This document shows, piece by piece, positions 1 through 43,741 of a DNA stretch of 43,741 nt. Origin of the DNA: a virus. Numbering within the stretch: the stretch's first letter is position 1; the number at the start of each line of letters is the position of its first letter. The translations under genes were made by a program, and so were the position numbers. Location of the stretch: positions 1 to 43,741 of the IMG/VR virus record IMGVR_UViG_3300044618_000794. One strand, written 5' to 3'. The notes beneath the pieces were generated by a model. The model ran no database searches. It had not been told where the DNA came from and was given only the letters and a program-made list of their open reading frames with translations.

Positions 1-127
1 CACCGCCCCCGTAATGTGGTCATGGTCTAGCACCGCCTGATCGGCAGAGCATGGGAGCTTGCACAGGGCGCACGCGCAGTGTTGCTTAAGGCGCAGTTCT
101 TCGCGGACGCCTGCGACTTGGGTAGTC
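1..127. repeat. Terminal direct repeat, copy 1 (map-opening overlap)
   Basis: Bases 1-127 are identical to the last 127 bases of the window. The repeat lies inside the endonuclease VII reading frame, so it is not a natural terminal repeat. 127 is a common maximum k-mer in short-read assemblers, which suggests (inference) a circularised contig whose ends were not trimmed. Removing one copy gives a 43,614-bp unit. Confidence 0.95.
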
Positions 128-141
128 TTCAGTCGGGTCAT
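1..141 (-). CDS. Endonuclease VII (Holliday junction resolvase), 5' part
   Basis: This is the N-terminal part of a gene cut by the map opening; it continues at the far end of the window. The ATG at 141-139 overlaps the stop of the 5'-3' exonuclease (ATGA), which fixes the start. Joined over the junction the protein has 125 residues. Residues 22-31 hold a cysteine cluster including a C-x2-C pair (C24, C27), followed by DHDH at 39-42, the T4 endonuclease VII metal and catalytic signature. T7-like phages use this enzyme to resolve branched replication intermediates before packaging. The partial status is an artefact of where the circle was opened. Confidence 0.9.
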   Translation of the reverse strand, partial: MTRLKTTQVAGVREELRLKQHCACALCKLPCSADQAVLDHDHITGAV

Positions 142-1067
142 AGCACGGCGCTCTTGATGCGCTGGGTGATGATTGCTTGGGCGTTGCCGAACAGTTCGCG
201 GACATGACCGAGCGGGTTGCCGTCGTCCAGTACGTTGAAGACACGCGAACGCTCGTCGTTGCGCATCCACAGGAGCACAGCCTGCTCTAGCAGCTGCACG
301 TCCCACGCGTCGCCGTAGTAGCCTTTGTACAGGCCACCGACAACCATGAACGCATGCTCGTTGTTCTGGCACTCGGCCAGCAACTTCATGGCGGTAGCCT
401 CTCCGCACAAGCCTTCCTTACCGTTGGGCTTCACGTACTTGGGCAGACCGGGCACGAAGTCGGCGTTGTCGCCCATCAGCATCTGTAGCCAGAACCACTT
501 GCGGCCATACACCAGGTCGTTGAACACAAGCTCCCAGGTTTCCGGCGGCACCTCGATAAGGCGCATCGTGTCCCAGGTAAGGTGCAGGCCAGGGACCATA
601 CGCATGTCCTTGTCCTGCGTGTGGATAACCACGTTCTTCCAGCCCAGCATGGTACTGTACTTGCCGAACAGGTCATCAGCCTCGGCGTCTGAGGTCAGGT
701 CGGAGGACAGCGGCGGCTCCTGCTCCAGGATACGACGCAGGTACTCCCAGTTCTGGGGCCTACGGCCACTGCTGCGCTGGCCTTGGTACTCTTTGACCGT
801 GGCCGTGGCGTAGCGGTAGCCCTTGTGCGAATGGCGTGCAGTCAGCAGCAGGCGATGCGTCTCCGCGCCGCTTGCACGCTTTGCGGCGCCCAGCGTGTTC
901 ATCAGGTTGATACGGGCCTGTCCCGGTGAGCACTCTTCGTTACCTGCGCAGGTGTAGGCCAGGGCGTCACCGTCAGAGAACAACACCCTGCCCGGCACTG
1001 CCGGGAGGGTAGTTGTAGCTTGCGGTTCCGCCGCCACTGCCTTGGCAACAGCGGGGGAGTTGAACAT
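138..1067 (-). CDS. 5'-3' exonuclease (FEN/PIN-like)
   Basis: A 309-residue protein with the acidic motifs of phage flap/5' exonucleases: SDGD near residue 31, SDAEADD near 125, TQDKD near 149, and GDNADFVPGLP near 199, which corresponds to the helix-hairpin region. The likely role is RNA-primer removal and degradation of host DNA. It sits immediately after the SSB-like gene (TGATG overlap at 1067) and before endonuclease VII (ATGA at 141-138), the order seen in phiKMV-like phages. About 25 Ala/Pro-rich residues precede the first motif, so a slightly later start is possible, but the overlap supports this one. Confidence 0.88.
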   Translation of the reverse strand: MFNSPAVAKAVAAEPQATTTLPAVPGRVLFSDGDALAYTCAGNEECSPGQARINLMNTLGAAKRASGAETHRLLLTARHSHKGYRYATATVKEYQGQRSSGRRPQNWEYLRRILEQEPPLSSDLTSDAEADDLFGKYSTMLGWKNVVIHTQDKDMRMVPGLHLTWDTMRLIEVPPETWELVFNDLVYGRKWFWLQMLMGDNADFVPGLPKYVKPNGKEGLCGEATAMKLLAECQNNEHAFMVVGGLYKGYYGDAWDVQLLEQAVLLWMRNDERSRVFNVLDDGNPLGHVRELFGNAQAIITQRIKSAVL

Positions 1068-1942
1068 CAGAACGGAATGTCGGCGTCTTCCGGCGGCGTG
1101 TAGCTACCGGTCTGGTTGCTGGTCGGAGCGCTGGGCTTAGTGCTCAACGCATCGCGGCCGGACTCAGGCGGGGGCAGGTCAAGCGCGGGCTGACCACCGC
1201 TCACCTGCTGCGCGCCGCTACCTTCGTAGTTGACGGCAGACTTGATCTTGTTCTGAAGCACGTTCTTGCTCTTGGCGGGAGCGACCACGGCGCCGGTCTT
1301 TTCGTCCCTACGTTCGGGGTACTCGCCGTCGATGAACAGGCTATCCCACGAAGCCTTGTCTGCGTAGTTCCACAGGAAGTAGCGCAGCGGGCTGATGACC
1401 GGATCGACTTGCACCGGGCGGGGTTCTCCCGTTTCCGGGTCGTCCACACGCGGCGGACGGATGCTGTACGCACCGTCTGCGGGGTTGCGCAGAACAGCGG
1501 TGACACGTTCCTTACCGTCTTGACCCTTCCACTTGTCGTGGTAGATCGTACCGAGGAACGCCTCGCCCAGCAGCTGCACCATGTGGGTAGCCGTGCCGGC
1601 GTAGTTCATGCGCTGGAACAGCTTGAAGAAGTTGGCCTTTTCGTTGAGGCTCAGGTTCTCTTCGATGGTGATGCGCAGCGGGATTTTGTTACCGTTGTCA
1701 TCGACGCGGGGCTGGTGCTTAGGACCACTGACCTCGAAGATCAGTTGCACCTTGTCCTGCGTCTTGGGCACACCCTTGTAGGTGCTGGTATGCTTACCCA
1801 CTTCGATGTAGCCGATGAAGCGCAGCTTGCAGAAGCCTTCAGCCGGTGGGGTGTAGTCACCGCCGCCAGCCTTGGCTTTGGTCATGTCTGCGCCTTCTGC
1901 GGCGGCCTTGGCGCCCAGCGCCTTGAAGTCGATGATGGTCAT
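1067..1942 (-). CDS. Putative single-stranded DNA-binding protein
   Basis: A 291-residue protein encoded between DNA polymerase and exonuclease. The last residues, PPEDADIPF, match the acidic, phenylalanine-ending tail that bacterial and phage SSBs use to recruit replication partners. It is preceded by a low-complexity Pro/Ser/Gly linker (about residues 240-282), again SSB-like. The N-terminal 200 residues are rich in beta-prone segments and could form an OB fold, but I cannot prove this from sequence alone. The ATG overlaps the polymerase stop (ATGA, 1942-1939). T7 places its SSB (gp2.5) elsewhere, so the call rests on the tail and the context. Confidence 0.6.
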   Translation of the reverse strand: MTIIDFKALGAKAAAEGADMTKAKAGGGDYTPPAEGFCKLRFIGYIEVGKHTSTYKGVPKTQDKVQLIFEVSGPKHQPRVDDNGNKIPLRITIEENLSLNEKANFFKLFQRMNYAGTATHMVQLLGEAFLGTIYHDKWKGQDGKERVTAVLRNPADGAYSIRPPRVDDPETGEPRPVQVDPVISPLRYFLWNYADKASWDSLFIDGEYPERRDEKTGAVVAPAKSKNVLQNKIKSAVNYEGSGAQQVSGGQPALDLPPPESGRDALSTKPSAPTSNQTGSYTPPEDADIPF

Positions 1943-4386
1943 TGTTGTGCCTGTTCAAAGGAAGGTTTGTAGTTGCCCATGTAGAGGGCGCGGAGTTCGT
2001 CGCGGTAAGGCTTGGCGTCGTCTCTGACGGTAGCGATACGGCCCTCGTCCATCATGGACTTGCCCCAGGTGGTGTCTGACGGTACGGGTACCGGCACGTT
2101 CCAACTGAAGAAGTATTCCATGTAGTCCGAGGCTGCTTCCATGCAAGCATGCAGCAGCGCGGCGGCTTCACGTTTTACGCTGTTGTGGAAGTCCCCATAC
2201 AGCGCGTCGTGAACTTGGTTAACGAGCAGGGCCTTGTGCCCAAAGTTCTTCCGGGCATAGAAGCTACGGACAGCCAAGTACATGGCCGCCTTAGCCCACT
2301 CACCGCCGCCACCCTGCACGACGTAGTTCTTAATCTCCGTCGGGGAGAAGCTAGTGAAGATGCCACGCTTGACCAGATACTCTGGACTAGGTTGCTCGGT
2401 GTACTCGTAGAGCTTACCGTCGGGTGTGCGGTAGTGGGACTTACCGATGTGGCAGGTCACACCCCGTACTTCCGGGTGGGTAATAACGGTACCAGATGGT
2501 TGACGGTTCGCCTTGATCTGCTCCGTGATCTGCTCATAGTACAGGTCGATTTCTGGGTAGCGGGTAGACTCCGCCAGAATCAGGGCTTCCACTTCTTCCA
2601 GCGGCATGCCCGTAGACTCTGCGATTTTCTTGGCCCCGGCACCGTATGCACGCTGGAACGAGAAGACCTTAGCCTTAGTGCGCTTCTTGTCCCACTCGGG
2701 GTCAGCGTCAACCCACGTGCCGTCCTCTGCCTTGTAGCCCTTGCACAGCTTGAGCACTTCGTCATAAGGCATGCCCTCTTTCTGGGACACGCGGACGCAG
2801 TGCATGTCCAAGCCTGCACGCAAGTCGAGGATCAGCTGCTCGCAGCGGGTAAGGATGGCCTGGACGTACACTTCCAGCGCAGTGAAGTCGGACTGGCAGA
2901 TAACGCCGTCGGCGCCAAACCGGCTGACGAACGTGCGCTTGATCTGCGAACCCTTCTGCTTTCCGGTAAGCTCGTCGTAGCTGCCCTTGCTGATGTTTTG
3001 CAAGTTCGGATCGCTACTACTGAACCGTCCCGTGACTGTGTTCGTGTGGTTAATCCGGTGATGGATCAGACCGTGCTCGTCAACAAGCGCCAGCATACCC
3101 TTGGACTTACCCGTCTCTGGGTCGGTCACAATGTAGTACGTGCTGAGGTCCTTGGTCATAGTCTGGAGTTCAGCCATGACGGTAAGGAACGGGATACCCC
3201 GCTTGCCCAACTCTTCGATCACATCAGAAGCCGTGCTGTACACGCCGGGCGTACTGCTCTCCCACTTACGCTCAGCCCAGGTAAAGCCCGGCAGAGTGTA
3301 AGTGTCCTTACCCATACGGGACTTGGGCTTGCTGAGATCAGGGCACTTGACCTTCTTGGTCTTGATCTCTCCGGTGTTCTTGCCGCTGGCGTAGCGCACA
3401 ACCCGGATGCCCAGAGTACGGGCGGCGTCTACGGGCATGAGGTCGCCAGCACCTTCGTTGCCGCGGTAGTTCTCCGCAGCTTCGCACATGACCACATCCA
3501 TCTGGCTATATGCCTGATCCGGGTGGCCTTCCTCGAAGGTGTATTCTCCAGTGGTCAGCAGGTACTCACGCCTGTCGTAGCTGACAGTACCGCCAAAGAT
3601 CAGCGCGGACTTCTGAATTGGGCTTGTCCACTTGAACTCGAACGGTAGGTCTTCTGGTAGGAACTTCTCAAGCTCCAGCCGCACTATGTCGATCTTCTTG
3701 CGCAGTTCTTCTGCAAGGTGTAGCGCTAGTGGCATGTCCACAAACATGCCGTTACGTTCCATTTCGATGGAGCAGATAAGGCTGCCCATGTTGAGGAACA
3801 CGCTGCGCAGTTGGCCAGCTTCTTTGGCCCGTGCCAGCTGGCCAAGAGCGATGCGGCGGGTGTTGCCAATGTCGCCCTCTTGGAAGTCACCGTTCTCGTC
3901 GGGACCGCCAATGAGATAGCGTGACAGCAGCGCGGGCTCAATGTCGGCGGTGTCTACGCCTGCCGCCCACAGAACCTTAACCTCGTCTACCTTCAGGTTG
4001 CCGCCGTAGCGCGGGGCTACCTCGTCCAGCGTCAGCATGTGCTCACGTGGGCCCATGCCGTTAAGCAGGTACTCGGCAAGCTGGGTGTCCCACACCATGC
4101 CGCCACCAGCCACAAACTCCATCCACGCCTCAAGGTTTTCCTTGTCTTGCAGTGCGTGCAGCAAGTCGAACTTGATGTTGTGACCAGCAAGCAGTCGGGC
4201 ACCCTCAAGCACAGGCTTAAGCCAGCCTGGACCAGGGCGTTGCTTACCGAACCAGTATTCCGTGGGCTTACCCTCTACCTCGAAGGCGTGGGTTACTACC
4301 CAGTTCTCGGGATGGAACGGCGAGGCAAGGCGCTTGTTAAGCGTCTTGGTCGTAGTCTCCGTGTCCCATGCGCGGAGTCCTTTCAT
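1939..4386 (-). CDS. DNA polymerase, family A (T7 gp5-like) with 3'-5' exonuclease
   Basis: An 815-residue replicative polymerase, longer than T7 gp5 (704). The exonuclease domain begins with WDTET (D8, E10), with NIKFD further on. Polymerase motif A is SDFTALEVY (D500). Motif B has R569, K573 and the YGAG loop. Motif C is VHDALYGD (H726, D727). The O-helix position equal to T7 Tyr526 is Phe577, as in E. coli Pol I. The gene is coupled at both ends through ATGA overlaps (4386-4383 and 1942-1939). T7 polymerase uses host thioredoxin as its clamp; I could not place a thioredoxin-binding loop here. Confidence 0.96.
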   Translation of the reverse strand: MKGLRAWDTETTTKTLNKRLASPFHPENWVVTHAFEVEGKPTEYWFGKQRPGPGWLKPVLEGARLLAGHNIKFDLLHALQDKENLEAWMEFVAGGGMVWDTQLAEYLLNGMGPREHMLTLDEVAPRYGGNLKVDEVKVLWAAGVDTADIEPALLSRYLIGGPDENGDFQEGDIGNTRRIALGQLARAKEAGQLRSVFLNMGSLICSIEMERNGMFVDMPLALHLAEELRKKIDIVRLELEKFLPEDLPFEFKWTSPIQKSALIFGGTVSYDRREYLLTTGEYTFEEGHPDQAYSQMDVVMCEAAENYRGNEGAGDLMPVDAARTLGIRVVRYASGKNTGEIKTKKVKCPDLSKPKSRMGKDTYTLPGFTWAERKWESSTPGVYSTASDVIEELGKRGIPFLTVMAELQTMTKDLSTYYIVTDPETGKSKGMLALVDEHGLIHHRINHTNTVTGRFSSSDPNLQNISKGSYDELTGKQKGSQIKRTFVSRFGADGVICQSDFTALEVYVQAILTRCEQLILDLRAGLDMHCVRVSQKEGMPYDEVLKLCKGYKAEDGTWVDADPEWDKKRTKAKVFSFQRAYGAGAKKIAESTGMPLEEVEALILAESTRYPEIDLYYEQITEQIKANRQPSGTVITHPEVRGVTCHIGKSHYRTPDGKLYEYTEQPSPEYLVKRGIFTSFSPTEIKNYVVQGGGGEWAKAAMYLAVRSFYARKNFGHKALLVNQVHDALYGDFHNSVKREAAALLHACMEAASDYMEYFFSWNVPVPVPSDTTWGKSMMDEGRIATVRDDAKPYRDELRALYMGNYKPSFEQAQQ

Positions 4387-4595
4387 GCTTGCTTGAGCAC
4401 CCAGATGGACATACCATCACGGGCCCCTACGGTACCGACCATGCAGTTATGGTCGCCGATCAAGCAATCGGTGGTGTGGCGCATGTCGCACCCCTCGCAC
4501 CAGTTAGAGGTGTCGCCTTTAATGGGAGCACGTTCGTATGACTTCCCTGTGTATGGGCTTGTGTACTCGTCGGTGTAGTTGGCTTCAGTGGCCAC
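4383..4595 (-). CDS. Hypothetical Cys-containing small protein
   Basis: A 70-residue protein starting at a GTG (4595-4593) with a GAGG-type ribosome site about 8 bases upstream. It has a C-x2-C pair (WCEGC) and two further cysteines (DCLIG, NCMVG), so a single zinc-binding site is possible. Its stop overlaps the DNA polymerase start (ATGA), so it is probably co-translated with the polymerase. I do not recognise the family. Confidence 0.7.
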   Translation of the reverse strand: MATEANYTDEYTSPYTGKSYERAPIKGDTSNWCEGCDMRHTTDCLIGDHNCMVGTVGARDGMSIWVLKQA

Positions 4596-4845
4596 GAGAT
4601 TTCCTCAAGTAAGTGTGTAGCCGCATGGCGGCGATGCAGCCAAGTCCTGCACCCAAGCCCAGCGGGATCGCTAGGGCTAGGCCGGTCTTGACCAGCTGCG
4701 TGACAATCGTTATCTCGCACACCGCCATTAGCATGCTAGTAGGCATGACCCACCAGTAGCGGCTGTGCTGGACATTGAGTTGCTGAAATGCGCGCAGTGC
4801 GACGAACGCAAAACTAACGCAAAAGGTTAGGGCAAATGCCTGCAT
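4585..4845 (-). CDS. Small membrane protein
   Basis: An 86-residue protein with two or three hydrophobic segments (about residues 2-18, 33-50 and 54-73) and a basic C-terminus, so it is probably an inner-membrane protein. I chose the ATG at 4845 rather than an earlier in-frame ATG at 4884 because AAGGA sits 5-6 bases upstream and the overlap with the preceding gene drops to 32 bases. No function is recognised. Its position among replication genes recalls small early or middle membrane peptides of other T7-like phages. Confidence 0.72.
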   Translation of the reverse strand: MQAFALTFCVSFAFVALRAFQQLNVQHSRYWWVMPTSMLMAVCEITIVTQLVKTGLALAIPLGLGAGLGCIAAMRLHTYLRKSRGH

Positions 4846-5038
4846 GTAAGTCCTTGTCGAACAGTATCTCTCCGGTGTCGGCACACACTACTCGCTGTAC
4901 GTTGCGCCACGCGAACGTGCGGGCTTCCCCGCGCAGCTTGCAGTACGCCTTAAACACGGTGTCGGTAGCGCTGCACATAAGCACAGCGCGGTCACTTCGG
5001 GTACCGTCAGGCTTAACGTACCGCACCAAGAGGTTCAC
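4814..5038 (-). CDS. Hypothetical protein, WYL-like core
   Basis: A 74-residue protein with GTG start (5038-5036) preceded by AAGGA. The segment AYCKLRGEARTFAWRNVQRV resembles the most conserved strand of WYL domains (cysteine, RGE, RTF, then a basic residue near a helix start). WYL domains bind nucleic acid or nucleotide ligands in bacterial regulators. Here only this core is present, with no helix-turn-helix, so any regulatory role is inference. The 3' end overlaps the membrane-protein gene by 32 bases. Confidence 0.65.
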   Translation of the reverse strand: MNLLVRYVKPDGTRSDRAVLMCSATDTVFKAYCKLRGEARTFAWRNVQRVVCADTGEILFDKDLHAGICPNLLR

Positions 5039-5047
5039 CGTTAATCC

Positions 5048-5161
5048 TTACTGGAGATTTCCGTTAAGGTGGACAAGGTTTAAGTAGGCTTCTGTGGCGT
5101 TGTAACCGTAGCACGTCACTTGACGGTACCATGGGCCTGCCCAAGAGGTACTCGCCCTCAC
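5048..5161 (-). CDS. Candidate microprotein (37 aa)
   Basis: An open frame from a GTG at 5161 to TAA at 5048 fills the gap between two accepted genes almost exactly, starting 1 base after the upstream stop. The product is aromatic-rich (WAGPWYRQV, CYGYNATEAY). The ribosome site is weak (GGTAAA). I recognise no family; support is the tight packing typical of this genome. Confidence 0.42.
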   Translation of the reverse strand: MRASTSWAGPWYRQVTCYGYNATEAYLNLVHLNGNLQ

Positions 5162-5162
5162 T

Positions 5163-5387
5163 TTACCAGTACACTCCCAACGTCCCGCGTTTAACCAGAT
5201 GCGGCTTGTGCTTCAGCGGTAGGACAGGCACCGGCCCGGGCGGGTCTCGTTCATCGCAGCACGCCTCACACAGAGGCCCCAAATCGCTACCGCCCGGATC
5301 TTTCGGCGGCAGATAAATCGAGTCCTCATTGCACCGACCTGTCGGCTGATCGCAAGCGACGCAGCGTTGAATATTCTGTATACTCAC
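5163..5387 (-). CDS. Putative zinc-ribbon small protein
   Basis: A 74-residue protein with C-x2-C near residues 9-12, another cysteine near 19, and CEACC near 40-44, spaced like a treble-clef or zinc-ribbon knuckle. It begins with GTG (5387-5385) overlapping the stop of the preceding microprotein gene (GTGA), which indicates translational coupling. The C-terminal third is Pro/Lys-rich. No enzymatic motif is visible. Confidence 0.65.
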   Translation of the reverse strand: MSIQNIQRCVACDQPTGRCNEDSIYLPPKDPGGSDLGPLCEACCDERDPPGPVPVLPLKHKPHLVKRGTLGVYW

Positions 5388-5521
5388 GGCGTCTTACCGC
5401 CACGCAAACACACCCAGATGGTGCAGCATGGCAACAGGTTAACGCACAGGCGCCTGTTGTGCTTGCTCCAGTGAGCACCCACCCACAGGCCGCCCGGCTG
5501 AAAGAGTACGCCGAATTTCAC
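5384..5521 (-). CDS. Microprotein (45 aa), Cys/Trp-rich
   Basis: This frame runs from GTG (5521-5519) to TGA (5386-5384). Both ends make overlaps: GTGA with the upstream 35-residue gene and GTGA with the downstream zinc-ribbon gene. The product begins MKFGVLFQPGGLWVGAHWSK and carries NLLPCCTIWVCLRGG, the style of small phage proteins encoded near replication genes. I consider it real because three consecutive stop/start couplings agree. Function unknown. Confidence 0.72.
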   Translation of the reverse strand: MKFGVLFQPGGLWVGAHWSKHNRRLCVNLLPCCTIWVCLRGGKTP

Positions 5522-5625
5522 CGGTCACCGTCCTTGAACAAGAAGTGCAGAATCAGCGCTGCTATGATACCGCCCGCCGGCACGGCCAGCACTGTCAACA
5601 GCGCGCTTAGATCGCCCGTGCTCAT
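5518..5625 (-). CDS. Microprotein (35 aa), single membrane span
   Basis: ATG at 5625 overlaps the upstream stop (ATGA) and the TGA at 5518 overlaps the next GTG. The product is a short N-terminus, one hydrophobic helix (about residues 8-30, LLTVLAVPAGGIIAALILHF) and a charged tail (KDGDR). This is the shape of a small single-pass membrane peptide. Its role cannot be inferred. Confidence 0.68.
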   Translation of the reverse strand: MSTGDLSALLTVLAVPAGGIIAALILHFLFKDGDR

Positions 5626-5855
5626 GTCAGGTCCAGGTACATACCATTGTCGCCAGAGTACACACGGTACCCGTAGCTTTCCAGCAAGCGCTTCATGCGC
5701 GGAAGATCGTTACCGTCAAAGAAGGCCACGCCACGCTTACCCATCTTCTTGCTGATAACGTCAGCGTTAAGGGCAACGTGCGTTTTGAATCGCTCTTCTT
5801 GCTGGTCGTTGTAGAATTTCGCTTGCGCTTCTTTGAAGGTGACTAGCGGACTCAC
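5622..5855 (-). CDS. Hypothetical protein (77 aa)
   Basis: A small charged protein, GTG start at 5855 overlapping the helicase stop (GTGA). It has an N-terminal amphipathic stretch (FKEAQAKFYNDQQEERFKTH) and ends in GDNGMYLDLT. The middle (KRGVAFFDGNDLPRMKRLLESYGYRVY) looks like an alpha/beta unit. Coupled to the helicase, it may be a replication accessory factor, but no family is recognised. Confidence 0.7.
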   Translation of the reverse strand: MSPLVTFKEAQAKFYNDQQEERFKTHVALNADVISKKMGKRGVAFFDGNDLPRMKRLLESYGYRVYSGDNGMYLDLT

Positions 5856-7135
5856 TTTGCAAACTCCACGTAACGTCCTCGGTTACCGTCGAAGAGGACT
5901 TCTGCTTGCGGGGACGCTGGCACACCGGTACGCACCTTCTTGTTCTTGGTGGTACCGATGTAACGGCTGTTGGCCAGCACTGGATCATTGACTGCGCCCA
6001 ACGTAATGATAACGTCAGCCGCGCCTTGCTTGCCGGTCTTGCTGTCTTTCAGCATGGGCAGCGTTGGGTATTGCAGGCCGTCGCCGTCGGCGCTGATCTG
6101 CGACGTAGCGATAACGGCACAGTCATGCTTAACGCCACGCACACGGGCCCACTGATACATGGCTTCCAGCAACTGGTCGGTACGTTGGCCGTTGTTGTTG
6201 ACCTCGCCACCGAACTTGATGTTGTCCACCATGTCGAACAGCACTGCCGCCGGGCGGTGCAGTTTCATCAGGTCTTCGACTTCGTGGTTCCACATATCGT
6301 GAATGTCGAAGATGCGCAGCGTACCGCCACGGCCACCGAGAGCAGCGGCGTACTCGTCCCGGATGGTGCCTGCGTTGGCCTTAGCCACAAGCTCTTCGGT
6401 CGTAGCGTTTAGCGCCGCCTGGAAGCAGCGCGTTACGATACGCTTGCCTGGGCCCTCGTTGTTGAACCACAGGATGCTGCGCCGTTCGCCAGGGTACAGG
6501 GCATCCACCTGACTGGCCATGAACGTAAGCTCACTGGCCGCAAAGGTAGTCTTGCCCTTGTCTGGGCGTGCTGCCACTACTACGAAGTCGCCAGCGCGCA
6601 ACGGCTTGATGTGCCGGTTAAGGCAGGGCAGGCGCCAGTGCAGGCCGGTGTCGTCCTCTTCTTCCTTGAGCAGGTCTTCGATGGCGTCGAGAACCTGCGG
6701 GTTCTTCACCTTACGGTCGATCTGTTGATCGTAGGCGTCGAGGTAGGACGTTAGGCCCTGCCGCAGGTCCACTTCCTCGCCAGCTTGGAAGCGTTCGATC
6801 ATGCTGGCAACGTCGTAGGCCGTGGCCGTCTCTACCAGCCGCTTCATCAAGCCCTCTGCAATGTCCTCGCTAACGTCTTCCTGAATGTCCAGGAACAGCT
6901 GGTCGTACACTGCAAAGTCTTCGTCGCTGAGCTTTGGATGGATGCTCTTGAAGAAGATATTGAAAGGCTCTCGGTGAATCCGGGAGCTTTGCGGGAACTC
7001 CTTGAAGTACCGACCGTAGTCGGTAAGGAGGATTTGCGTGCGCGTGTCAAGCGCTTTGCGTGGGAGGGCACGCGCCAAGTTCTCGTACCGTTCCCGGTAC
7101 TTGAGCAGGCGCAGCGTGGTAAGGTCAAGGCTCAT
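5852..7135 (-). CDS. Replicative DNA helicase, DnaB-like
   Basis: A 427-residue helicase. The ATG at 7135 overlaps the primase stop (ATGA) and the product begins MSLDLTTLRLLKYRERY. The frame stays open 51 codons further upstream inside the primase gene, but that extension is primase antiframe. Walker A is ARPDKGKT (189-196), with Ala in the first position as usual for DnaB; the Walker B region is AAVLFDMVDNI. The N-terminal half is helical, like the DnaB primase-interaction domain. Primase and helicase are separate proteins here, unlike the T7 gp4 fusion but as in phiKMV. It should unwind the fork for the family A polymerase. Confidence 0.93.
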   Translation of the reverse strand: MSLDLTTLRLLKYRERYENLARALPRKALDTRTQILLTDYGRYFKEFPQSSRIHREPFNIFFKSIHPKLSDEDFAVYDQLFLDIQEDVSEDIAEGLMKRLVETATAYDVASMIERFQAGEEVDLRQGLTSYLDAYDQQIDRKVKNPQVLDAIEDLLKEEEDDTGLHWRLPCLNRHIKPLRAGDFVVVAARPDKGKTTFAASELTFMASQVDALYPGERRSILWFNNEGPGKRIVTRCFQAALNATTEELVAKANAGTIRDEYAAALGGRGGTLRIFDIHDMWNHEVEDLMKLHRPAAVLFDMVDNIKFGGEVNNNGQRTDQLLEAMYQWARVRGVKHDCAVIATSQISADGDGLQYPTLPMLKDSKTGKQGAADVIITLGAVNDPVLANSRYIGTTKNKKVRTGVPASPQAEVLFDGNRGRYVEFAK

Positions 7136-7938
7136 ATTGCTGAGTGCAGTGTCGCACGAATTTCCTCGATGGTGTGCAGCTTTGGGTCTTTCTCTGAGCG
7201 TATGTCTATTACGGTCAGGCCGTAGGCCCGCAGCTGCTTGGTGTATCTTGCAGCAGCCTTGCGGCCGGGCCCGTCGGGGTCCAGCCACACGGCTACTGGC
7301 CTACGCCTACGCATGAACTCTGCAACGTAAGCGTCGGGGACGTTGGTTCCCATTGCGGGCCAGCCTTCGCCCACTAAGCCTATCTTGTAGGCGCTGAGAA
7401 TGTCCTCGGTCAAAACGGGAAAAGGCCCCGAGCCATAGGACACTAGCATGTCCTTGGGTCGGGGTGTCGGTGCCAGGTACTTAGGCTTGCGTCCGTCTAC
7501 CGCCCTGGCTTGGTAGTAGATGGGTCCTAGCGATGGGTCGCTGCGGACTGGTATAACAACCCGTGCCGTTGCGCGGTGCCAATAGGCCCCAAGCCGCCCA
7601 ATGTCTGCGTTGCTGAGTCCGGCTTTGTAGAACCAGAGCTTAGCTCCAACAGGCCAATCGTGTACAGCATACACAGCCGGTCCTGGGAAATCCCGTAGGC
7701 CCGTGCAAACAACATCTTCTTCAGAAAGTTTTGCAAGGCTGGCGACAAGTTCTGAAAAGTCTTGCTTGACTGGGAGGAAGCCCGGTTCACTGCAACGAAA
7801 GCACCAAGCCGAGTAACCCCGCGCGTTACGGGAAACACGGAGCTTACGTCCATCCCCGCAGTTGTGCTCAACATCCTTGAGTTCTCCTATCTCTAGGCCG
7901 GTAGCGTGATGCTCCCACGAGCCTTTGTCTAGGCTCAT
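7132..7938 (-). CDS. DNA primase (TOPRIM)
   Basis: A 268-residue primase. The N-terminus holds a zinc-binding element (H25, C27, then C46-x2-C49). The TOPRIM core has the Glu motif in VLTEDILSAYKIG and the Asp motif in VWLDPDGPGRKAA. It makes the RNA primers extended by the phage polymerase. The start overlaps the stop of an upstream 38-residue gene (ATGA, 7938-7935), and the stop overlaps the helicase start, so the three are probably co-translated. Confidence 0.92.
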   Translation of the reverse strand: MSLDKGSWEHHATGLEIGELKDVEHNCGDGRKLRVSRNARGYSAWCFRCSEPGFLPVKQDFSELVASLAKLSEEDVVCTGLRDFPGPAVYAVHDWPVGAKLWFYKAGLSNADIGRLGAYWHRATARVVIPVRSDPSLGPIYYQARAVDGRKPKYLAPTPRPKDMLVSYGSGPFPVLTEDILSAYKIGLVGEGWPAMGTNVPDAYVAEFMRRRRPVAVWLDPDGPGRKAAARYTKQLRAYGLTVIDIRSEKDPKLHTIEEIRATLHSAI

Positions 7939-8051
7939 GGGAGCGGCTTGATGATGCGGCGGAAGCCGTAGACAAAGTCGTAACGTGTTGTGTCAACGAC
8001 TGTAAGCCATCGGCGTCCGCCTATTGTCAGGACTTCAAACTGTCGTAGCAT
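7935..8051 (-). CDS. Microprotein (38 aa) upstream of primase
   Basis: ATG at 8051-8049 lies inside the end of the HD-domain gene, and the TGA at 7937-7935 overlaps the primase ATG. The product is MLRQFEVLTIGGRRWLTVVD followed by TTRYDFVYGFRRIIKPLP, a beta-rich and basic sequence that reads like a genuine small protein. It fills the otherwise unexplained space before primase exactly. Function unknown; translational coupling to primase is its most solid feature. Confidence 0.62.
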   Translation of the reverse strand: MLRQFEVLTIGGRRWLTVVDTTRYDFVYGFRRIIKPLP

Positions 8052-10967: not shown

Positions 10968-11612
10968 TTACGCCCAAGGATCAGTGATTACCCACTGACC
11001 GTCAGAGCGCAGCATGATGTTGTTGCGGTGCAAATCTGCACCGGCGCCAGGTGGAGCAAAACCACGAAGGGCTTTACCTATGGTGTATTCTTTGCGGTAT
11101 TCTTCGTGTTTGCACATAGCCCCAGACAAGCCGAAGCTCAAACTCCAATACCGACGGTCGAGGTCTAATCTTTCCTGCTCATTAAGTGTAACTTCCGCCC
11201 GGCACTCATCCAGCGTTGAGCCTAGCCGCTCTATCAGGCTGATGGTGCAGCCTGAAAACGACTCCAAGTACCCGACGTTTAGTAGGTAAGCGCTAATACC
11301 TGGGCAGTTGCGCTCAAGTTCTGCCTTGTGGATAAAGCAGATGTGGGCATAGTGTGCCCAGAGATCTTCGCCCGGAACGATCTTGACGACCTTACCTTCA
11401 AGGCACGGGCTGCTCACGGCGATGCCAAAACAGCCAGTTCCAAGGACCTTAAATCCTGCCAAGCTCAGTTGCTTTTTCCACAAGTTGCGGTAACTGCCCG
11501 CAGAAGGTTGGTCGGGTACACTACAGCCTAGCATGGCGTACATCTTGTACGTCGGCATTTTGAGCGCAATAGATTGCAGCAGGCCGATAACGGCACGCTC
11601 ACTTTTATTCAT
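10968..11612 (-). CDS. Early protein kinase, T7 gp0.7-like (kinase domain only)
   Basis: A 214-residue protein. AGFKVLGTGCFGIAVSSP parallels the T7 gp0.7 glycine loop (GTGCFG at 58-63), followed by VVKI (K77). The catalytic segment is GADLHRNNIM (D193, N198), then ITDPWA at the very end (D211). T7 gp0.7 phosphorylates host RNA polymerase and other proteins and has a separate C-terminal shut-off region; that region is absent here, the protein stopping right after the DP motif. I chose ATG 11612 (GGAG 5 bases upstream). The gene sits in the early block downstream of host-type promoters, as in T7. Confidence 0.85.
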   Translation of the reverse strand: MNKSERAVIGLLQSIALKMPTYKMYAMLGCSVPDQPSAGSYRNLWKKQLSLAGFKVLGTGCFGIAVSSPCLEGKVVKIVPGEDLWAHYAHICFIHKAELERNCPGISAYLLNVGYLESFSGCTISLIERLGSTLDECRAEVTLNEQERLDLDRRYWSLSFGLSGAMCKHEEYRKEYTIGKALRGFAPPGAGADLHRNNIMLRSDGQWVITDPWA

Positions 11613-11761
11613 ACGAACTCCACTTCGTAGGTTAAAGATGGTGTGCTGGATTATGCCCAACGCTTTCGGCGCCCACCCGCTCGGCACTGCTGTCGCAGCC
11701 GCTAGCAAAGGCACGGATTACGCTGGATCGTGTAGCAGTTAAGGGCTATTGCCCAGCACAC
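11613..11761 (-). promoter_or_regulatory. Structured leader of the kinase gene
   Basis: A 9-bp closing stem GTGTGCTGG/CCAGCACAC (11641-11649/11753-11761) encloses a GC-rich interior with further stems. Next to the start codon, ACGAA/TTCGT (11613-11617/11624-11628) holds the ribosome site GGAG in its loop. The arrangement suggests control of kinase translation or mRNA processing; no coding frame is present. Confidence 0.58.
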
Positions 11762-12512
11762 AAGCAAACACCTAGGCTAGGGGCTTGCTTGTGGGTAGGG
11801 TGTGCGGCATGGCCAGCGCGGTGACTAGCCCAAAGTTTCCGTAGTCAGCGGCGAGCGTCTGCCACACGTTGGCAGCCTCGACCATACCGCACTGTTAGTC
11901 ACCCAACGTCCCGCCATCATAAGTTGGGCACGATTTTCCGGATTGGATGACTAACAGTACGTCCGCTTGTTAGCAGATTTCCTGTCGTTGCGTTGGCACG
12001 TTAACGTCTAACCCAAGCATTGCGCAAATAGACGGCCTGCATAACAGGCTTGTGTGGCTAAGGAGTCTAGAACAAAGCCACAGGATAACGCTGTCGCTAT
12101 CCTGTAGCCCCGCACTGCCGGCCGGACAGTGAAGAGTCTACACCGGCGTTAACGAGGCACGGACACGGGCAGGCCAACTGCCAGGGCTTTCACACAGTTT
12201 CCGGGGCATTAGTCCGGCGAAGCAACACACAGTCGCTTAAATGCTCTCCCATGATGCAACAAGTGTGCGGGAGGTCAGGGCTAGTCTGGTTACACCCGAC
12301 ATTCAGGTGCCCTACGCCTGTCAGCAGTAGGGATAGCGGCCACAGTCACGGCCGCACGACTTATCGCCAAGTCATACTTAACATTGACTCATTATGGTTC
12401 AGGAGCTAGGGCGAGAAAACCCGCTAGGCGTGTGGCGTAAGTTACGGCACACAGGTAAGCGCTCACAACAAGCGCTTAACCGTGTGGCCTAGCCTTGCGG
12501 CTAGGCTCTTGG
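11762..12512 (-). ncRNA. Gene-free, hairpin-dense block; candidate structured RNA
   Basis: I find no supported frame on either strand and no ribosome site. Self-complementary elements are frequent: 11-bp arms at 11891-11901/11948-11958 stacked on CCCAAC/GTTGGG (11902-11907/11923-11928); ACAGGATA/TATCCTGT (12080-12087/12098-12105); a near-perfect palindrome at 12430-12452; TAAGCGCT/AGCGCTTA (12456-12463/12471-12478); and GCCTAGCC/GGCTAGGC with a GCAA loop (12487-12506). The block lies inside the early transcription unit, between the 175-residue gene and the kinase. A functional non-coding RNA or a multi-hairpin processing region is inferred; I do not recognise a known RNA family. Confidence 0.45.
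12487..12506 (-). terminator. GC-rich hairpin after early gene (attenuator or 3' stabiliser)
   Basis: A perfect 8-bp stem, GCCTAGCC/GGCTAGGC, closes a GCAA tetraloop six bases after the stop of the 175-residue gene. No T-run follows, so it is not a standard rho-independent terminator. It could be an RNase barrier or a weak terminator. Confidence 0.4.
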
Positions 12513-13040
12513 TCACATCGGGGCGGAACCGACACCGGCCAGGGCATCGCCGAAGCCGGCGGCATCGTCCACACCGGCCAGGGCTTCCACCTGGGCCATG
12601 AGGTCAACGTTCACGACCTGCTTGGCCTTGCTCTGCTTGCCCTTGGCCGACTTCAGGAACGCCAGCAGCGCCTTCTGGAAGTCGTAGACTTCCTCGACGG
12701 CGGGTTCCGGGGCGTACTCGTACCAGGGCTTCTTGGCCGCGGTTTCGAGGTTGTTCTTCTTCTCGGCGTCCTTGACGAAAGGCCGGGTCTTCTTGGTGCC
12801 TTCGTCGTCGTTGGCACGCAGGTGGCTGTTGCCCAGAATCCACTGGGCCATCGCGCTGGTCTTGGTGCCCTTGGGCATGGCCAGGAACAGGCGATTCATG
12901 AAGCCATCGTCGCCGCTGTCCACGATGTGTTGCAGCGCGGCCATCGCCAGCTTCTGGCCCTGGATCAGCCACTGCTTGCCGTCATGGCCCCACTTGTCAA
13001 TGGCGGCATTGAGGGCAGAGGCACTCATTTTCTCATTCAT
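12513..13040 (-). CDS. Hypothetical early protein (175 aa)
   Basis: The ATG at 13040 has GGAG eight bases upstream; a GTG three codons earlier is too close to the ribosome site. Residues 1-75 are helical with LFLAMPKGTKTSAMAQWIL as the most distinctive stretch. A charged middle (KKTRPFVKDAEKKNN) and an Ala/Gly/Val-rich C-terminus follow. It is one of the first genes after the early promoters, so a host-takeover role is plausible by position only. I do not recognise a domain. Confidence 0.75.
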   Translation of the reverse strand: MNEKMSASALNAAIDKWGHDGKQWLIQGQKLAMAALQHIVDSGDDGFMNRLFLAMPKGTKTSAMAQWILGNSHLRANDDEGTKKTRPFVKDAEKKNNLETAAKKPWYEYAPEPAVEEVYDFQKALLAFLKSAKGKQSKAKQVVNVDLMAQVEALAGVDDAAGFGDALAGVGSAPM

Positions 13041-13114
13041 GTTACACACTCCACAGAGTAACCTGCAAGGCGCAGGCCAAGGCCCACAGGGTGGGCTATG
13101 GTCTGAGTCTTACC
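13041..13114 (-). promoter_or_regulatory. Structured leader sharing a 22-base repeat
   Basis: Three short hairpins: GCCCAC/GTGGGC (13082-13087/13091-13096), CCTGC/GCAGG (13062-13066/13072-13076) and ACTC/GAGT (13048-13051/13056-13059), the last containing the ribosome site. Bases 13055-13076 recur at 13333-13354 before the next early gene upstream. Confidence 0.62.
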
Positions 13115-13321: not shown

Positions 13322-13440
13322 TACAACTCCAGAGAGTAACCTGCAAGGCGCAGGGTTATAGATGCCACGTATAACGTACAGGGCATGATGGTTGATCCTG
13401 CTTTGCGCAGCAGCATCTATAACCCTACACCCAACAATGT
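13322..13440 (-). promoter_or_regulatory. Structured leader with 14-bp closing stem
   Basis: AGGGTTATAGATGC (13352-13365) and its exact complement (13413-13426) close a 47-base interior that contains a CTGC/GCAG hairpin. CCTGC/GCAGG (13340-13344/13350-13354) and ACTC/GAGT (13326-13329/13334-13337) hairpins then lead into the start codon. CCCAAC/GTTGGG (about 13430-13445) forms another stem just upstream in the RNA. Confidence 0.62.
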
Positions 13441-13922
13441 TGGGGTAGTTCACTAACTAGCCGTCGTCCACAAGATAGCCGCCAACGACCAGCCACACTC
13501 GGCTAGATCGCAGCATCTAGGTGCTGCCACAAGGTTGGGTTCTCAGGGGATGGAGGGATAGTCGCAACGCTGCTTTCGGCGTCACTTCAGGGTCTTAGCC
13601 TGCCGCCTACACCTGCTCCGCTTTGGTTCAGTGGGTTACTAGCCCACCTACCGCACGTCTGCACCGTAGGGCTTGCCGTTTAGTCGCATGGTGGGTACTC
13701 ACCATTGGTCTAGGCTGCATCCTGGGTGCTTCATACGGCCGCCCACCGTCAAGCCCTATCCGGGCCTATAACGGCATCCTGCCAATCCACACACCTATCC
13801 ACAAACCGCGGGGTTGTTTGCCGCCCAGACAGGCTTGCGCCCATCCTGCTTCCCCTGTCACCAGACAGCCACTCTCGCCGCTGTCACGTAGGGCTTGCAC
13901 CCTGCTGTCCTACTGAGCCTGA
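13441..13922 (-). other. Long untranslated early leader
   Basis: About 480 bases between the early promoters and the first leader element contain no supported coding frame. Short hairpins are visible: CTAGAT/ATCTAG (13503-13508/13515-13520), GTGGG/CCCAC (13631-13635/13643-13647) and ATGGTG/CACCAT (13688-13693/13700-13705). A motif CGTAGGGCTTGC occurs twice (near 13664 and 13886). I see no convincing further promoter. Confidence 0.5.
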
Positions 13923-13951
13923 ACTTTAGCACAGTCTCAGAACCTTGTCAA
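13923..13951 (-). promoter_or_regulatory. Early host sigma70-type promoter (fourth in series)
   Basis: On the minus strand a consensus -35 TTGACA (13951-13946), a 17-base spacer ending in TGTGC, and a -10 TAAAGT (13928-13923) with the extended-minus-10 TGn. Reads leftward into the early genes. Confidence 0.88.
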
Positions 13952-13990
13952 CCCCCGGTCACTCGGTTGTTGTCTCAGTCCGTTGTCTGC

Positions 13991-14019
13991 ACTGTAGCAC
14001 AGTCCCACCGGCTTGTCAA
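13991..14019 (-). promoter_or_regulatory. Early host sigma70-type promoter (third in series)
   Basis: TTGACA (14019-14014), 17-base spacer ending GACTGTGC, -10 TACAGT (13996-13991). Same layout and extended -10 as its neighbours. Confidence 0.88.
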
Positions 14020-14063
14020 CCCCTAGCGGCTTGCGCTGCTCGGAGCCTGTCAACCTAGCCGAT

Positions 14064-14092
14064 ACTCTAGCACAGTCTTCGCTGTCTGTCAA
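14064..14092 (-). promoter_or_regulatory. Early host sigma70-type promoter (second in series)
   Basis: TTGACA (14092-14087), 17-base spacer ending GACTGTGC, -10 TAGAGT (14069-14064). Confidence 0.88.
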
Positions 14093-14192
14093 CCCCGCAC
14101 CCGGAGGATGCAAGCGCTGGCAGCATGGATAGATACGGCAGGGTAGCCCAAATATAGCGGGCATAGCTGCGCCTATCCTCAGCTGGTGTGCT

Positions 14193-14213
14193 GTTATACC
14201 GGTACTAGATCAA
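14193..14213 (-). promoter_or_regulatory. Phage RNA polymerase promoter, early block
   Basis: Minus strand reads GATCTAGTACCGGTATAAC then AGCAC. The core GTACCGGTATAAC is shared with three other sites, each upstream of a major gene block, which is how T7-like polymerase promoters are placed. It lies between the first and second host-type promoters. Confidence 0.8.
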
Positions 14214-14234
14214 TCGACCTAGCCGATGGCCTGA

Positions 14235-14263
14235 ACTATGGCACAGACTGCGCCGCTTGTCAA
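14235..14263 (-). promoter_or_regulatory. Early host sigma70-type promoter (first in series)
   Basis: TTGACA (14263-14258), 17-base spacer ending TCTGTGC, -10 CATAGT (14240-14235). It is the furthest upstream of the four, analogous in position to T7 A1. Confidence 0.82.
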
Positions 14264-14394: not shown

Positions 14395-14700
14395 ATGCCG
14401 CCACTGCACACGGCACCCGCCCGCCCACGCACCGCCGCCCCTGCGCCCCACGCACACACGCCCATGCAGGCCCCTGCGCGCCCGCTCCCGCGCCTTTCGC
14501 ACGTGCCCGCACCTACGCCCCACCCACGCACGCACGGCCCGCCAGCGCCCGCCCAGGCACCCGCACGGGCCCGCGCCCACGGGCAGGCACGCACGCCTGC
14601 GCCCCTGCGTGCAAGCGCGTGCCTGCGCGCCCATGCGCCTACGCACGCCCCCGCGTTAGGCGCGCACGCATGGGCCCACGGGGGTATACGCGCGCGCTCA
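14395..14700. other. Strand-asymmetric GC block near the inferred physical ends
   Basis: About 300 bases in which the plus strand is dominated by C with runs such as CCCGCCCGCCCACGC and very few T. The minus strand consequently carries many GGG runs. All frames stay open because stop codons are rare in such sequence, so the open frames here are not evidence of genes. It lies between the last late gene and the first early promoter, where T7-like genomes have their ends. Confidence 0.7.
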
Positions 14701-14710
14701 AGTCGGAGTT

Positions 14711-14758
14711 GCTCCCTCGCAATAGCGAATCAAATTTGACTCGTAACACGTAGGGAGC
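14711..14758 (-). terminator. Inverted repeat after the last late gene
   Basis: GCTCCCT/AGGGAGC arms (14711-14717/14752-14758) enclose a near-perfect 18-base palindrome centred on TCAAATTTGA (14726-14743). It begins seven bases after the final late stop. No clear T-run follows, so this may be a terminator assisted by other factors or a processing site. Confidence 0.5.
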
Positions 14759-14764
14759 TTACTC

Positions 14765-19823: not shown

Positions 19824-20040
19824 GCAGTTTCTCCTTGACCCACCGGTAGCCGTCACGGAAACGCACGACGATGGTGGGGAACTTGTCAATGATTAGGAAG
19901 ATCGTCCAGACCACGGACGGAATCAGTAGCCAGGTTTCAACCGGGATACCGAACAACAGGGCGCCACCCACCCCGACAGGCGGGGCGGCTTTGGCTACTT
20001 CGATAGCGGAAGCCGCTAGGTCGGGGTGGGGACTAGACAT
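19807..20040 (-). CDS. Holin, class II (T7 gp17.5-like)
   Basis: A 77-residue protein with two hydrophobic segments (about residues 20-33 and 35-52, WLLIPSVVWTIFLIID) and a basic tail (RDGYRWVKEKLRDNRK). The order fibre, holin, small terminase, large terminase is the T7 order. ATG overlaps the preceding stop (TAATG). Confidence 0.88.
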   Translation of the reverse strand: MSSPHPDLAASAIEVAKAAPPVGVGGALLFGIPVETWLLIPSVVWTIFLIIDKFPTIVVRFRDGYRWVKEKLRDNRK

Positions 20041-35815: not shown

Positions 35816-37323
35816 TGCATTGCTCCTTGTGCGGCAGCTTGTCCAGCTGCGGTTGCGGTTTCTTGTGCCACAGCTTCAGCGCGCCGTTGGGCGAGTTCTT
35901 GCTGATACTGTGCTTCGGGTTTCAGGAAAGGGGTAAGGTCCACGCCACGCCCGGCGCCGATGTAGGCAGCGATGGCGGCGAAGTTGATGCGGTCTTGCAG
36001 ACCCGGCGGAAGGGCCGTGATCTGTGCAAGATCACCTAGCGCCATACGGAGGTTTTCAAGGTCGCCGTTTCGACTGAGTGCATCCAGGCCGGTCAGCACT
36101 TCCACTTGGAAGTCGGTGCCGTCGATGGTCATGTCGATTTCGTCGAGCAGCCAGTTGGCGATGGGTGCTTGAATTTGCGCACTCAGCGAAGAGTACACCC
36201 CGCCCAACGCAGTCTCAAGTTCGAGTGCAGTGAGGCGGACCTCTTCTGCTGTCACCCGTTCAGCGTTGCGCGTTACTGCTGACAGTAGCAGGAAGTTACG
36301 GGCTAGCCGTTTCTCCCACGCTTCCATGCCAGCAAGGGCTTGCTGCACCGCCATCGGGTTGCCGCCGTTCATCGGCACCATGTCGTCCTTGCGGCCGGGC
36401 AGGGCGTCCCCGTTCTTGCTCTCGTTAACGTCCTTGGCCGTTAGCGTAGCAGTCGGGTCAATCAGCCACCGCAGTTCGGTACCGATAACACTGCCATCGA
36501 CCACCGACTCTGCCAGTGCGCTAAGCGCCTCGAAGTCACCGTGGCTATCCTCTACCAAGGAACTGCCGTAGTCGTGCTCGTCCGCTAGGTCCCAGGTGAG
36601 TGCATGGAACGGCAGGGTCTTATCCGTGTACCGACCACCGAACTTCGTCTGGTCCAGCTTAAGCGTGTTGACCCACTGCTCGGTGATGTAGCCACCGTTG
36701 GGCTGTAGACGCACGACTTGGTAGTAGTCTACCTTGTCCTCGCCCTCTTTGCGCACCTTGGCCACAGTAGCGGCCTCTTGCACTTTGGGGTCTAGCTCGT
36801 TGAAGGCTAGGTTTTCCTTGGTGACCAGCGTGTGGATGCGGCCGTCGATGGTGCGCTTCAAGCAGTAATACTTGAGCGACATGACGCGCAGCCCGGTAGG
36901 TGCGCGAACCATCAGCACGTTGCCGACCACGATCAGGTGGCGAATGATGGAGTACAGCTTAGGGCGTTGGCCCCGTGCGTCCAGTTCTCGCGCTGCCTCT
37001 TTCTCAATCTCAGCGAGTGCCGGTTGCAGTGCCGTAAGCTGTGCCGGGTCCATACCGCGGCGCGCCTTACGACCAAGCTGCACCCGGAAGAAGGGCTTGC
37101 TGGGATTGAACATGGCCAACATGATCTTGTTGGTCAGGTGGTTGACCGCTTGTGCGCCAAGCGATTGGTAGTCGTGGGCTAGGCCCTCGGACTCCTTGTT
37201 GCGCCCGTCTTCCAGTAGCAGTTTGCGAATGGTAAGTTCGCAGTAGCGTTCTGCGCGGGTGATTAGCGAGGTCTTCTTGCCTGCAAGCGTAGACCAAAGC
37301 GCCGGTGCGGTATCGTCTTGCAT
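35812..37323 (-). CDS. Portal (head-tail connector, T7 gp8-like)
   Basis: A 503-residue protein close to T7 gp8 (536). Typical segments include SLGAQAVNHLTNKIMLAMFN, then PFFRVQLG near the N-terminus, DLADEHDYGSSLVEDSHGDF in the middle, and an Ala/Gln-rich C-terminal barrel (YQQELAQRRAEAVAQETATA). ATG overlaps the upstream stop (TGATG at 37323). It forms the DNA entry channel of the prohead. Confidence 0.94.
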   Translation of the reverse strand: MQDDTAPALWSTLAGKKTSLITRAERYCELTIRKLLLEDGRNKESEGLAHDYQSLGAQAVNHLTNKIMLAMFNPSKPFFRVQLGRKARRGMDPAQLTALQPALAEIEKEAARELDARGQRPKLYSIIRHLIVVGNVLMVRAPTGLRVMSLKYYCLKRTIDGRIHTLVTKENLAFNELDPKVQEAATVAKVRKEGEDKVDYYQVVRLQPNGGYITEQWVNTLKLDQTKFGGRYTDKTLPFHALTWDLADEHDYGSSLVEDSHGDFEALSALAESVVDGSVIGTELRWLIDPTATLTAKDVNESKNGDALPGRKDDMVPMNGGNPMAVQQALAGMEAWEKRLARNFLLLSAVTRNAERVTAEEVRLTALELETALGGVYSSLSAQIQAPIANWLLDEIDMTIDGTDFQVEVLTGLDALSRNGDLENLRMALGDLAQITALPPGLQDRINFAAIAAYIGAGRGVDLTPFLKPEAQYQQELAQRRAEAVAQETATAAGQAAAQGAMQ

Positions 37324-41938: not shown

Positions 41939-42179
41939 GCGGGTACTCCTTGTCGTTGGCTTCCAGGCAGGCACTGATCTTCTTTTGCATGTCGATCAAG
42001 CTGTCTTTAGCGGTGACGGCCTCGGCAATGCGGGCGTACAGATCGGCCTTGCGCTCGAATCTGTAGCCAGCAAGAGAAACCGCCTTGTCGATAACGACAT
42101 AGGCGGCTTCTTCGAGGCCCTTAGTTTGGAACTTCTCTGCTTGGATCAGCAGAGTCAACGTAAGGGCGTAGGGGTGCAT
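41931..42179 (-). CDS. Hypothetical helical protein (82 aa)
   Basis: ATG 42179 shares a base with the upstream stop (TGATG). An all-helical, charged product (MHPYALTLTLLIQAEKFQTK, later ADLYARIAEAVTAKDSLIDM). The frame is open upstream but only as an antiframe. Unknown function. Confidence 0.68.
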   Translation of the reverse strand: MHPYALTLTLLIQAEKFQTKGLEEAAYVVIDKAVSLAGYRFERKADLYARIAEAVTAKDSLIDMQKKISACLEANDKEYPHG

Positions 42180-43445: not shown

Positions 43446-43741
43446 CTTCCGTCTTGAAGGTTGGGTGCAACAGCCCGGTGCGGTTAACACTGTGCTGCTG
43501 CAAGTAAGGGGCAAGCCCCTGGCAAAACGCTGCGAGGTTCTGCACCCCGTAACGCTTGAAGTTGTTTTCCACCTTGCCCAGAAGCGCATTGCAGGAGCGA
43601 TGCAAGGTTGCCCGCACCGCCCCCGTAATGTGGTCATGGTCTAGCACCGCCTGATCGGCAGAGCATGGGAGCTTGCACAGGGCGCACGCGCAGTGTTGCT
43701 TAAGGCGCAGTTCTTCGCGGACGCCTGCGACTTGGGTAGTC
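43378..43741 (-). CDS. Endonuclease VII, 3' part (continues at window start)
   Basis: The frame is open to the end of the window; the true start lies at position 141 after the circle is closed. This piece carries DHDHITGAVRATLHRSCNAL, including the DHDH metal motif, C55 and N56 (full-length numbering), and a basic C-terminal tail (KRIKRNATARKKRAAAKAAG). The second zinc knuckle shows H52-x2-C55 where T4 endonuclease VII has two cysteines. Reading it as a separate 89-residue protein would lose the first zinc knuckle. Confidence 0.9.
   Translation of the reverse strand, partial: TTQVAGVREELRLKQHCACALCKLPCSADQAVLDHDHITGAVRATLHRSCNALLGKVENNFKRYGVQNLAAFCQGLAPYLQQHSVNRTGLLHPTFKTEDEKRIKRNATARKKRAAAKAAG
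43615..43741. repeat. Terminal direct repeat, copy 2
   Basis: Exact duplicate of bases 1-127; see copy 1. Joining the two ends restores the endonuclease VII gene in frame. Confidence 0.95.

Follow-up and report, generated by a model that had tools for sequence, protein, structure and literature searches.

The early region and its untranslated block

The virus genome IMGVR_UViG_3300044618_000794 (43.7 kb), whose whole length of 43,741 nucleotides is referred to here as the window, is phiKMV/Kalppathivirus-like and belongs to the Autographiviridae. Its genes lie on the minus strand and include those for DNA polymerase, primase, helicase, a single-subunit RNA polymerase, ligase, terminase, and internal virion proteins. 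Curvibacter phage P26059B (Autographiviridae, Kalppathivirus) has a DNA polymerase with 58% identity to that of the window, and relatives infect Burkholderiales. An exact direct repeat of 127 bp lies at the ends (1-127 = 43615-43741); the assembly is therefore circular, and it is a permuted, complete genome. No tRNA or tmRNA was found in it.

The early operon is fed by four predicted sigma70-type host promoters arranged in tandem (13923-14263, minus strand) as 39-nt repeats, each TTGACA-N17-TAnAGT-like. Two of the early genes border the segment of interest. Upstream lies a phrog_1448 gene (12513-13040, minus strand; match E 5e-32), a homologue of LUZ19 gp3 as judged from the LUZ19 record, and downstream lies a protein kinase gene resembling T7 0.7 (10968-11612, minus strand; phrog_15752 match E 4e-12). 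A structure search with the phrog_1448 protein returned phage homologues only, and a role for it as an RNA-binding protein was dropped, its structure model being unlike any solved structure. The mechanical ORF of the kinase starts at 11714, and the first start with a Shine-Dalgarno sequence (GGAG) is the ATG at 11612, so the untranslated gap between the two genes is probably about 900 nt long (11613-12512). Because the four tandem promoters sit upstream of it, early transcription of this block is likely, as a previous sequence-only reading of the locus had supposed.

Other features are scattered around this region. Two early genes have almost identical leaders (13048-13076 and 13326-13354), in which a small hairpin, CCTGCGCCTTGCAGG, precedes the same Shine-Dalgarno region. 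The early operon's leader (13340-13900, 561 nt) is also structured (z -3.9) and contains a hairpin with 19-bp arms at 13347-13431. The impression that coding sequences overlap almost everywhere was thus only partly right, as the early region has further gaps, of which this leader is one example. The strongest local folds of the genome, all for the minus strand, are at 42001-42120 (z -8.6), 19921-20040 (z -7.0), and 14641-14760 (z -6.4). A near-identical motif, TTGATCTRGTACCGGTATAACAG, starts at 14213, 22235, 35025, and 38292 on the minus strand, and its copies probably serve the phage-encoded RNA polymerase as promoters. No phage-polymerase promoter was found in the block, the candidates TTGATCTRGTACCGGTATAAC sitting elsewhere in the window, and a scan for the LUZ19 promoter motif gave no full match.

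The block had been described as free of genes, and this description stands. No ORF of at least 40 aa is present on the minus strand in 11715-12512, and the short frames have negative codon-use scores, except for one 37-aa frame (+4.5) that lacks a ribosome-binding site. Apart from the RNA element itself, translated frames of the block have no relative (best E 0.029); a missed gene was rejected, none of the frames being conserved. Nor does the block have its own promoter or terminator, the one weak terminator-like match (12035-12049) being no more than is found in shuffles.

The transcribed minus strand of the block folds with -337 kcal/mol (z -6.8 vs shuffles), and the plus strand also folds well (z -4.5). 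For the 900-nt form of the block z is -5.5, and 25 controls of 900 nt from the same genome have a mean of -1.6 (sd 1.1) and a lowest value of -4.7; the range for the block, -5.5 to -6.8, is lower than all of them, which bears out its reputation as hairpin-dense. Local folding splits the block into about 15 separate hairpins. Among them are a strong branched hairpin (11802-11892, minus strand, -46.4 kcal/mol) and a strong simple one (12069-12116, minus strand, -30.9 kcal/mol), for neither of which was a homologue found. Two adjacent hairpins lie directly past the phrog_1448 stop codon (12448-12506, minus strand). Two 8-bp hairpins had been placed at 12456-12506; one is indeed an 8-bp hairpin (12487-12506), but the other is a longer hairpin at 12448-12486. 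The near-palindrome at 12430-12452 is likewise present and contains a single mismatched pair; in the local fold, however, part of it is paired differently.

A hairpin family with a near-invariant apical module

The block as a whole has homology only to identical copies of the same phage, apart from 40 bases shared with a relative designated L025. These 40 bases are the inside of a hairpin at 11888-11961 (minus strand). The sequence-only reading had named this hairpin first, as 11-bp arms at 11891 and 11948; the arms do form a stem, which extends to 19 bp (11888-11906 with 11943-11961). L025 has the same bulge and loop as the window, and both arms of its outer stem differ yet still pair.

The element consists of the 19-bp outer stem, P1, and an apical module, and it scores 70.7-73.3 bits with covariance models in which the conserved part is 11894-11955. 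This conserved part is 62 nt long in the family and includes a near-invariant core of 30 nt. Positions below are on the minus strand. In two family alignments a conserved 10-nt bulge, UCCGGAAAAU (family RUCCGNARAAU), occupies 11933-11942. The 5' side of the inner stem (11926-11932) comprises P2 (CG), a bulged U, and P3 (GCCC), and covariation supports its pairing with 11907-11912. The apical loop, AACUUAUGAUGGC, spans 11913-11925 in alignments and folds; within it UAUGAUGG is nearly invariant, and it ends in UAUGAUGGC. Across the family the whole apical module, from bulge through the short inner stem (2 bp in P2 and 4 bp in P3) to the loop, is nearly fixed. P2 occurs as CG/CG, GG/CC, or GC/GC among members, and by eye as UA/UA in L080 and L127; P3 shows changes between C-G and U-A and between G-C and A-U. 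In five members (L033, L035, L069, L111, and L127) the apical loop contains additional inserted sequence, predicted to form a hairpin of its own, between CCCAA (or CUCAC) and AUGAUGG.

The sequence of the outer stem, by comparison, is free but compensating. It has 19 predicted pairs in the window and about 20-34 in most members; free folds of L069, L080, and L033 lack the full outer stem. When folded freely, the element of the window, L095, and L097 favours an alternative inner pairing, and this alternative is broken in L023, L031, L013, L033, and L069, where P2 and P3 persist.

Relatives were collected by means of the helicase, and more members came from pattern scans and a short BLAST query. 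Covariation in relatives had been proposed as the check on RNA structure in the block, and this hairpin shows it. In a MAFFT alignment of nine unaltered members (A5), 90.6% of cells pair and 16 of the 19 pairs change on both sides; there are 43 covarying cells compared with 14.0 +/- 3.1 in shuffled alignments, and the signal is lost when the partner strand is slid. With 16 members aligned to the model, pairs changing on both sides rise to 18 of 19 and covarying cells to 105 (34.8 +/- 4.6 shuffled; at most 26 with slid structures). The nine-member alignment is the cleaner test, because the larger one is model-fitted and leans towards the model. These data cover the 11888-11961 hairpin, the other hairpins of the block, about 14, being known from identical copies only. 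They show that 11888-11961 has been selected as an RNA structure on the transcribed strand and that, besides this structure, its unpaired bases are nearly fixed.

A first covariance model, R1, detected further diverged members. A second, R2, applied to the DNA of related phages, about 1.5 Mb in total, returned the same 16 members with E-values, resting on a shortened calibration, from 7e-22 to 1e-7 (next match E 3). A 17th member, L127 (34 bits), was found through a phrog_1448 search. The family therefore totals 17 distinct phages, including an isolate, Sphaerotilus phage vB_SnaP-R1 (Krylovirinae), whose DNA polymerase is about 30% identical to that of the window. The record of this isolate is MN844877, in which the hairpin occupies 859-919.

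No known RNA family had been recognized in the block, and a search of Rfam 15 agreed, with no match at or above the gathering cut-off in the window or six relatives. The sub-threshold matches include one to betaproteobacterial tmRNA (15 bits, gathering 84, wrong strand), which was dismissed. Model R1 found no match in the genomes of LUZ19, phiNV3, and HK022, in T7 1-8000, or in the E. coli rrnB operon, and a match in a Sinorhizobium phage (14 bits, inside a repressor gene) was dismissed. In bacteria, a strict pattern gave 0 matches among 84,980 species, and a loose pattern gave 68, none convincing, the best of which (24 bits) scores as the pattern itself would yield. A weak 24-bit model match occurs in a bacterial contig, a Phycisphaerales MAG (L152 2207-2268); it is probably due to chance, because the locus was picked by the core pattern. 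No description of the hairpin family was found in the open-licence literature.

Genomic position and phages that lack the module

The hairpin is single-copy in the window genome, and in all 17 phages it sits in the early region on the gene strand. Its place within that region varies. Ten members have it directly upstream of phrog_1448 and three further upstream (L031, L069, and L102); in another three, the window, L013, and L033, it follows phrog_1448. For the one remaining member, L080, no phrog_1448 was located. The module is portable between different stems and limited to the early operon.

In the Kalppathivirus-like group, a long stem whose outer frame is related from phage to phage is always present before phrog_1448, but what it carries varies. 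The loop is plain in P26059B, L021, L022, and L036; L014 and L015 have other folds; and the rest of the group has the module. Phage P26059B (L006, NC_048055) is close to L095 (phrog_1448 84% identical), yet at record positions 36630-36690, upstream of phrog_1448, it has kept the stem and lacks exactly the conserved module, so that on comparison of the two sequences it can be read as a natural deletion mutant for it. The hairpin model likewise finds no match in many phages that have phrog_1448, LUZ19 and phiNV3 among them. It follows that the module is portable and not indispensable.

Within the Kalppathivirus-like group, the untranslated stretches that follow phrog_1448 show conservation at the DNA level and share re-used hairpin sub-elements in a mosaic fashion (L006 5251-5904 on the reverse strand of NC_048055, L095 2713-3157, L025 3893-4283, and L023 4473-4929; also L017 and L035). 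They form a second set of candidate RNA elements.

Possible functions and known systems

The block hairpin is probably a real RNA control element, and not empty spacer. The explanation that we prefer, and regard as about evenly balanced between right and wrong, is that it acts in cis in the early mRNA, as a long stem of the RNase III type that presents the conserved apical module to a partner. The block would then be untranslated intergenic RNA of an early polycistronic transcript, with many separate hairpins. In the hairpin at 11888-11961, a double-helical stem of free sequence would hold up the near-invariant module (the UCCGNARAAU bulge, the 6-bp inner stem with its bulged U, and the UAUGAUGGC loop). 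The long stem may serve as a T7-like site for RNase III-type processing or 5'-end protection of the early mRNA, and the module as a docking site for a host or phage factor, which would tune processing, stability, or expression of the adjoining early genes (phrog_1448 and the kinase). The partner could be host polymerase (in a put-like manner), an RNase, a protein that binds RNA, ribosomal or otherwise, or one of the early phage proteins.

T7-type RNase III sites call for a stem, located between early genes, that spans about two turns of helix. The hairpin has 19 predicted pairs in the window and more in most relatives; the predicted outer stems of about 20-34 pairs are long enough for the enzyme. 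RNase III requires no conserved loop, and since it is indifferent to loop sequence the fixed module needs another reason. The early mRNA of T7 has five RNase III cut sites, and the T7 kinase stimulates RNase III (PMC4858673); by analogy, a kinase of the T7 0.7 family directly after the block may be counted in favour of this reading.

Two other explanations appear unlikely, to a similar degree. One is a protein-free antiterminator like HK022 put, in which the nascent hairpin would bind host RNA polymerase so that terminators are read through across the early operon. The element does sit in the first few kb past host promoters, once per genome, as a compact fixed module with a bulge and a loop, and HK022 putR lies about 270 nt past the start site (PMC9378689). 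However, it has a single stem rather than the two-stem put fold, HK022 gives no model match, and in the window, L013, and L033 it follows the phrog_1448 gene, and the promoters of the window are about 2 kb away from it. The other is a trans-acting small RNA or decoy, for which RNase III would free an apical hairpin of ~40-60 nt to titrate or inhibit a host factor (an RNase, a ribosomal protein, or an RNA chaperone). A near-invariant module on interchangeable stems is how a released binding module would be expected to look, and the variable genome position would suit it. Against this, the block has neither promoter nor terminator of its own, and complementarity of the hairpin's loops to E. coli rRNA, by which mimicry or antisense pairing might work, is at chance level (longest matches 8 nt, no better than shuffles).

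Considerably less probable is a ribozyme or ligand-binding RNA with the fixed bulge and loop as its catalytic or binding pocket. Fixed unpaired nucleotides, free stems, and an optional hairpin inserted in the loop are in keeping with such an RNA, but no Rfam ribozyme or riboswitch was matched at curated thresholds, the matches being weak and sub-threshold. Equally improbable is the single structured non-coding RNA of 750-900 nt, similar to GOLLD or ROOL, that the sequence-only reading had proposed. The fold of the whole block and the conserved untranslated segments after phrog_1448 in other phages speak for it; the division into ~15 local hairpins, the lack of any whole-block homologue, and the appearance of the conserved module on its own and at other places in relatives argue against it. 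The least probable explanation, a DNA-level feature (origin, packaging, or recombination site) or neutral spacer with incidental hairpins, would draw on inverted repeats being identical on either strand and on the good fold of the plus strand, but the block has no phage promoter, and G-U pairs, the fixed loop sequence, and an orientation that is constant in 17 of 17 phages point to RNA.

Structured elements of phage early transcripts have repeatedly revealed new ways to control host polymerase and RNases. The hairpin family combines strong covariation and a near-invariant 30-nt core with the lack of a described family, and it adjoins a widespread early protein, phrog_1448 (the LUZ19 gp3 family). 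A broader proposal, which we put forward tentatively, is that it represents a new class of portable phage RNA modules. Borne on interchangeable stems close to the first early genes of a diverse range of T7-like phages, these would bind host transcription or RNA-decay machinery directly (as a protein-free antiterminator, an RNase decoy, or a new ribozyme or aptamer fold). If the module does act on polymerase or RNase without protein, it would form a new class. Since the element occurs in the culturable Sphaerotilus phage vB_SnaP-R1 as well as in uncultured phages, its partner can be fished out directly.

Among known systems, the R sites of T7 are likewise long hairpins between Autographiviridae early genes, transcribed by host polymerase and adjoining a 0.7-type kinase gene. 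The family differs from them in having a near-invariant bulge and apical loop common to distant phages, on unrelated stems; the T7 early region (1-8000) gives no match to model R1, and cleavage of the family hairpin is a prediction. The put RNAs of HK022 are also compact cis RNAs in phage early transcripts with a functionally important bulge. They have two stems and a triplex (PMC9378689), whereas the family hairpin has a single stem and its binding of polymerase is hypothetical. GOLLD and ROOL resemble the whole block in being phage-encoded, structured, non-coding, and hundreds of nucleotides long, but each of these is one large conserved fold, frequently located close to tRNA arrays (PMC12286853); in the window, which lacks tRNAs and Rfam matches, only the 62-nt module is conserved. 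A structured cis element in an early phage transcript is of a known kind, and the hairpin family itself is new: an RUCCGNARAAU bulge, an inner stem of 2 + 4 bp, and a UAUGAUGGC loop on a covarying outer stem, found in the early region on the gene strand as an unusual, portable apical module.
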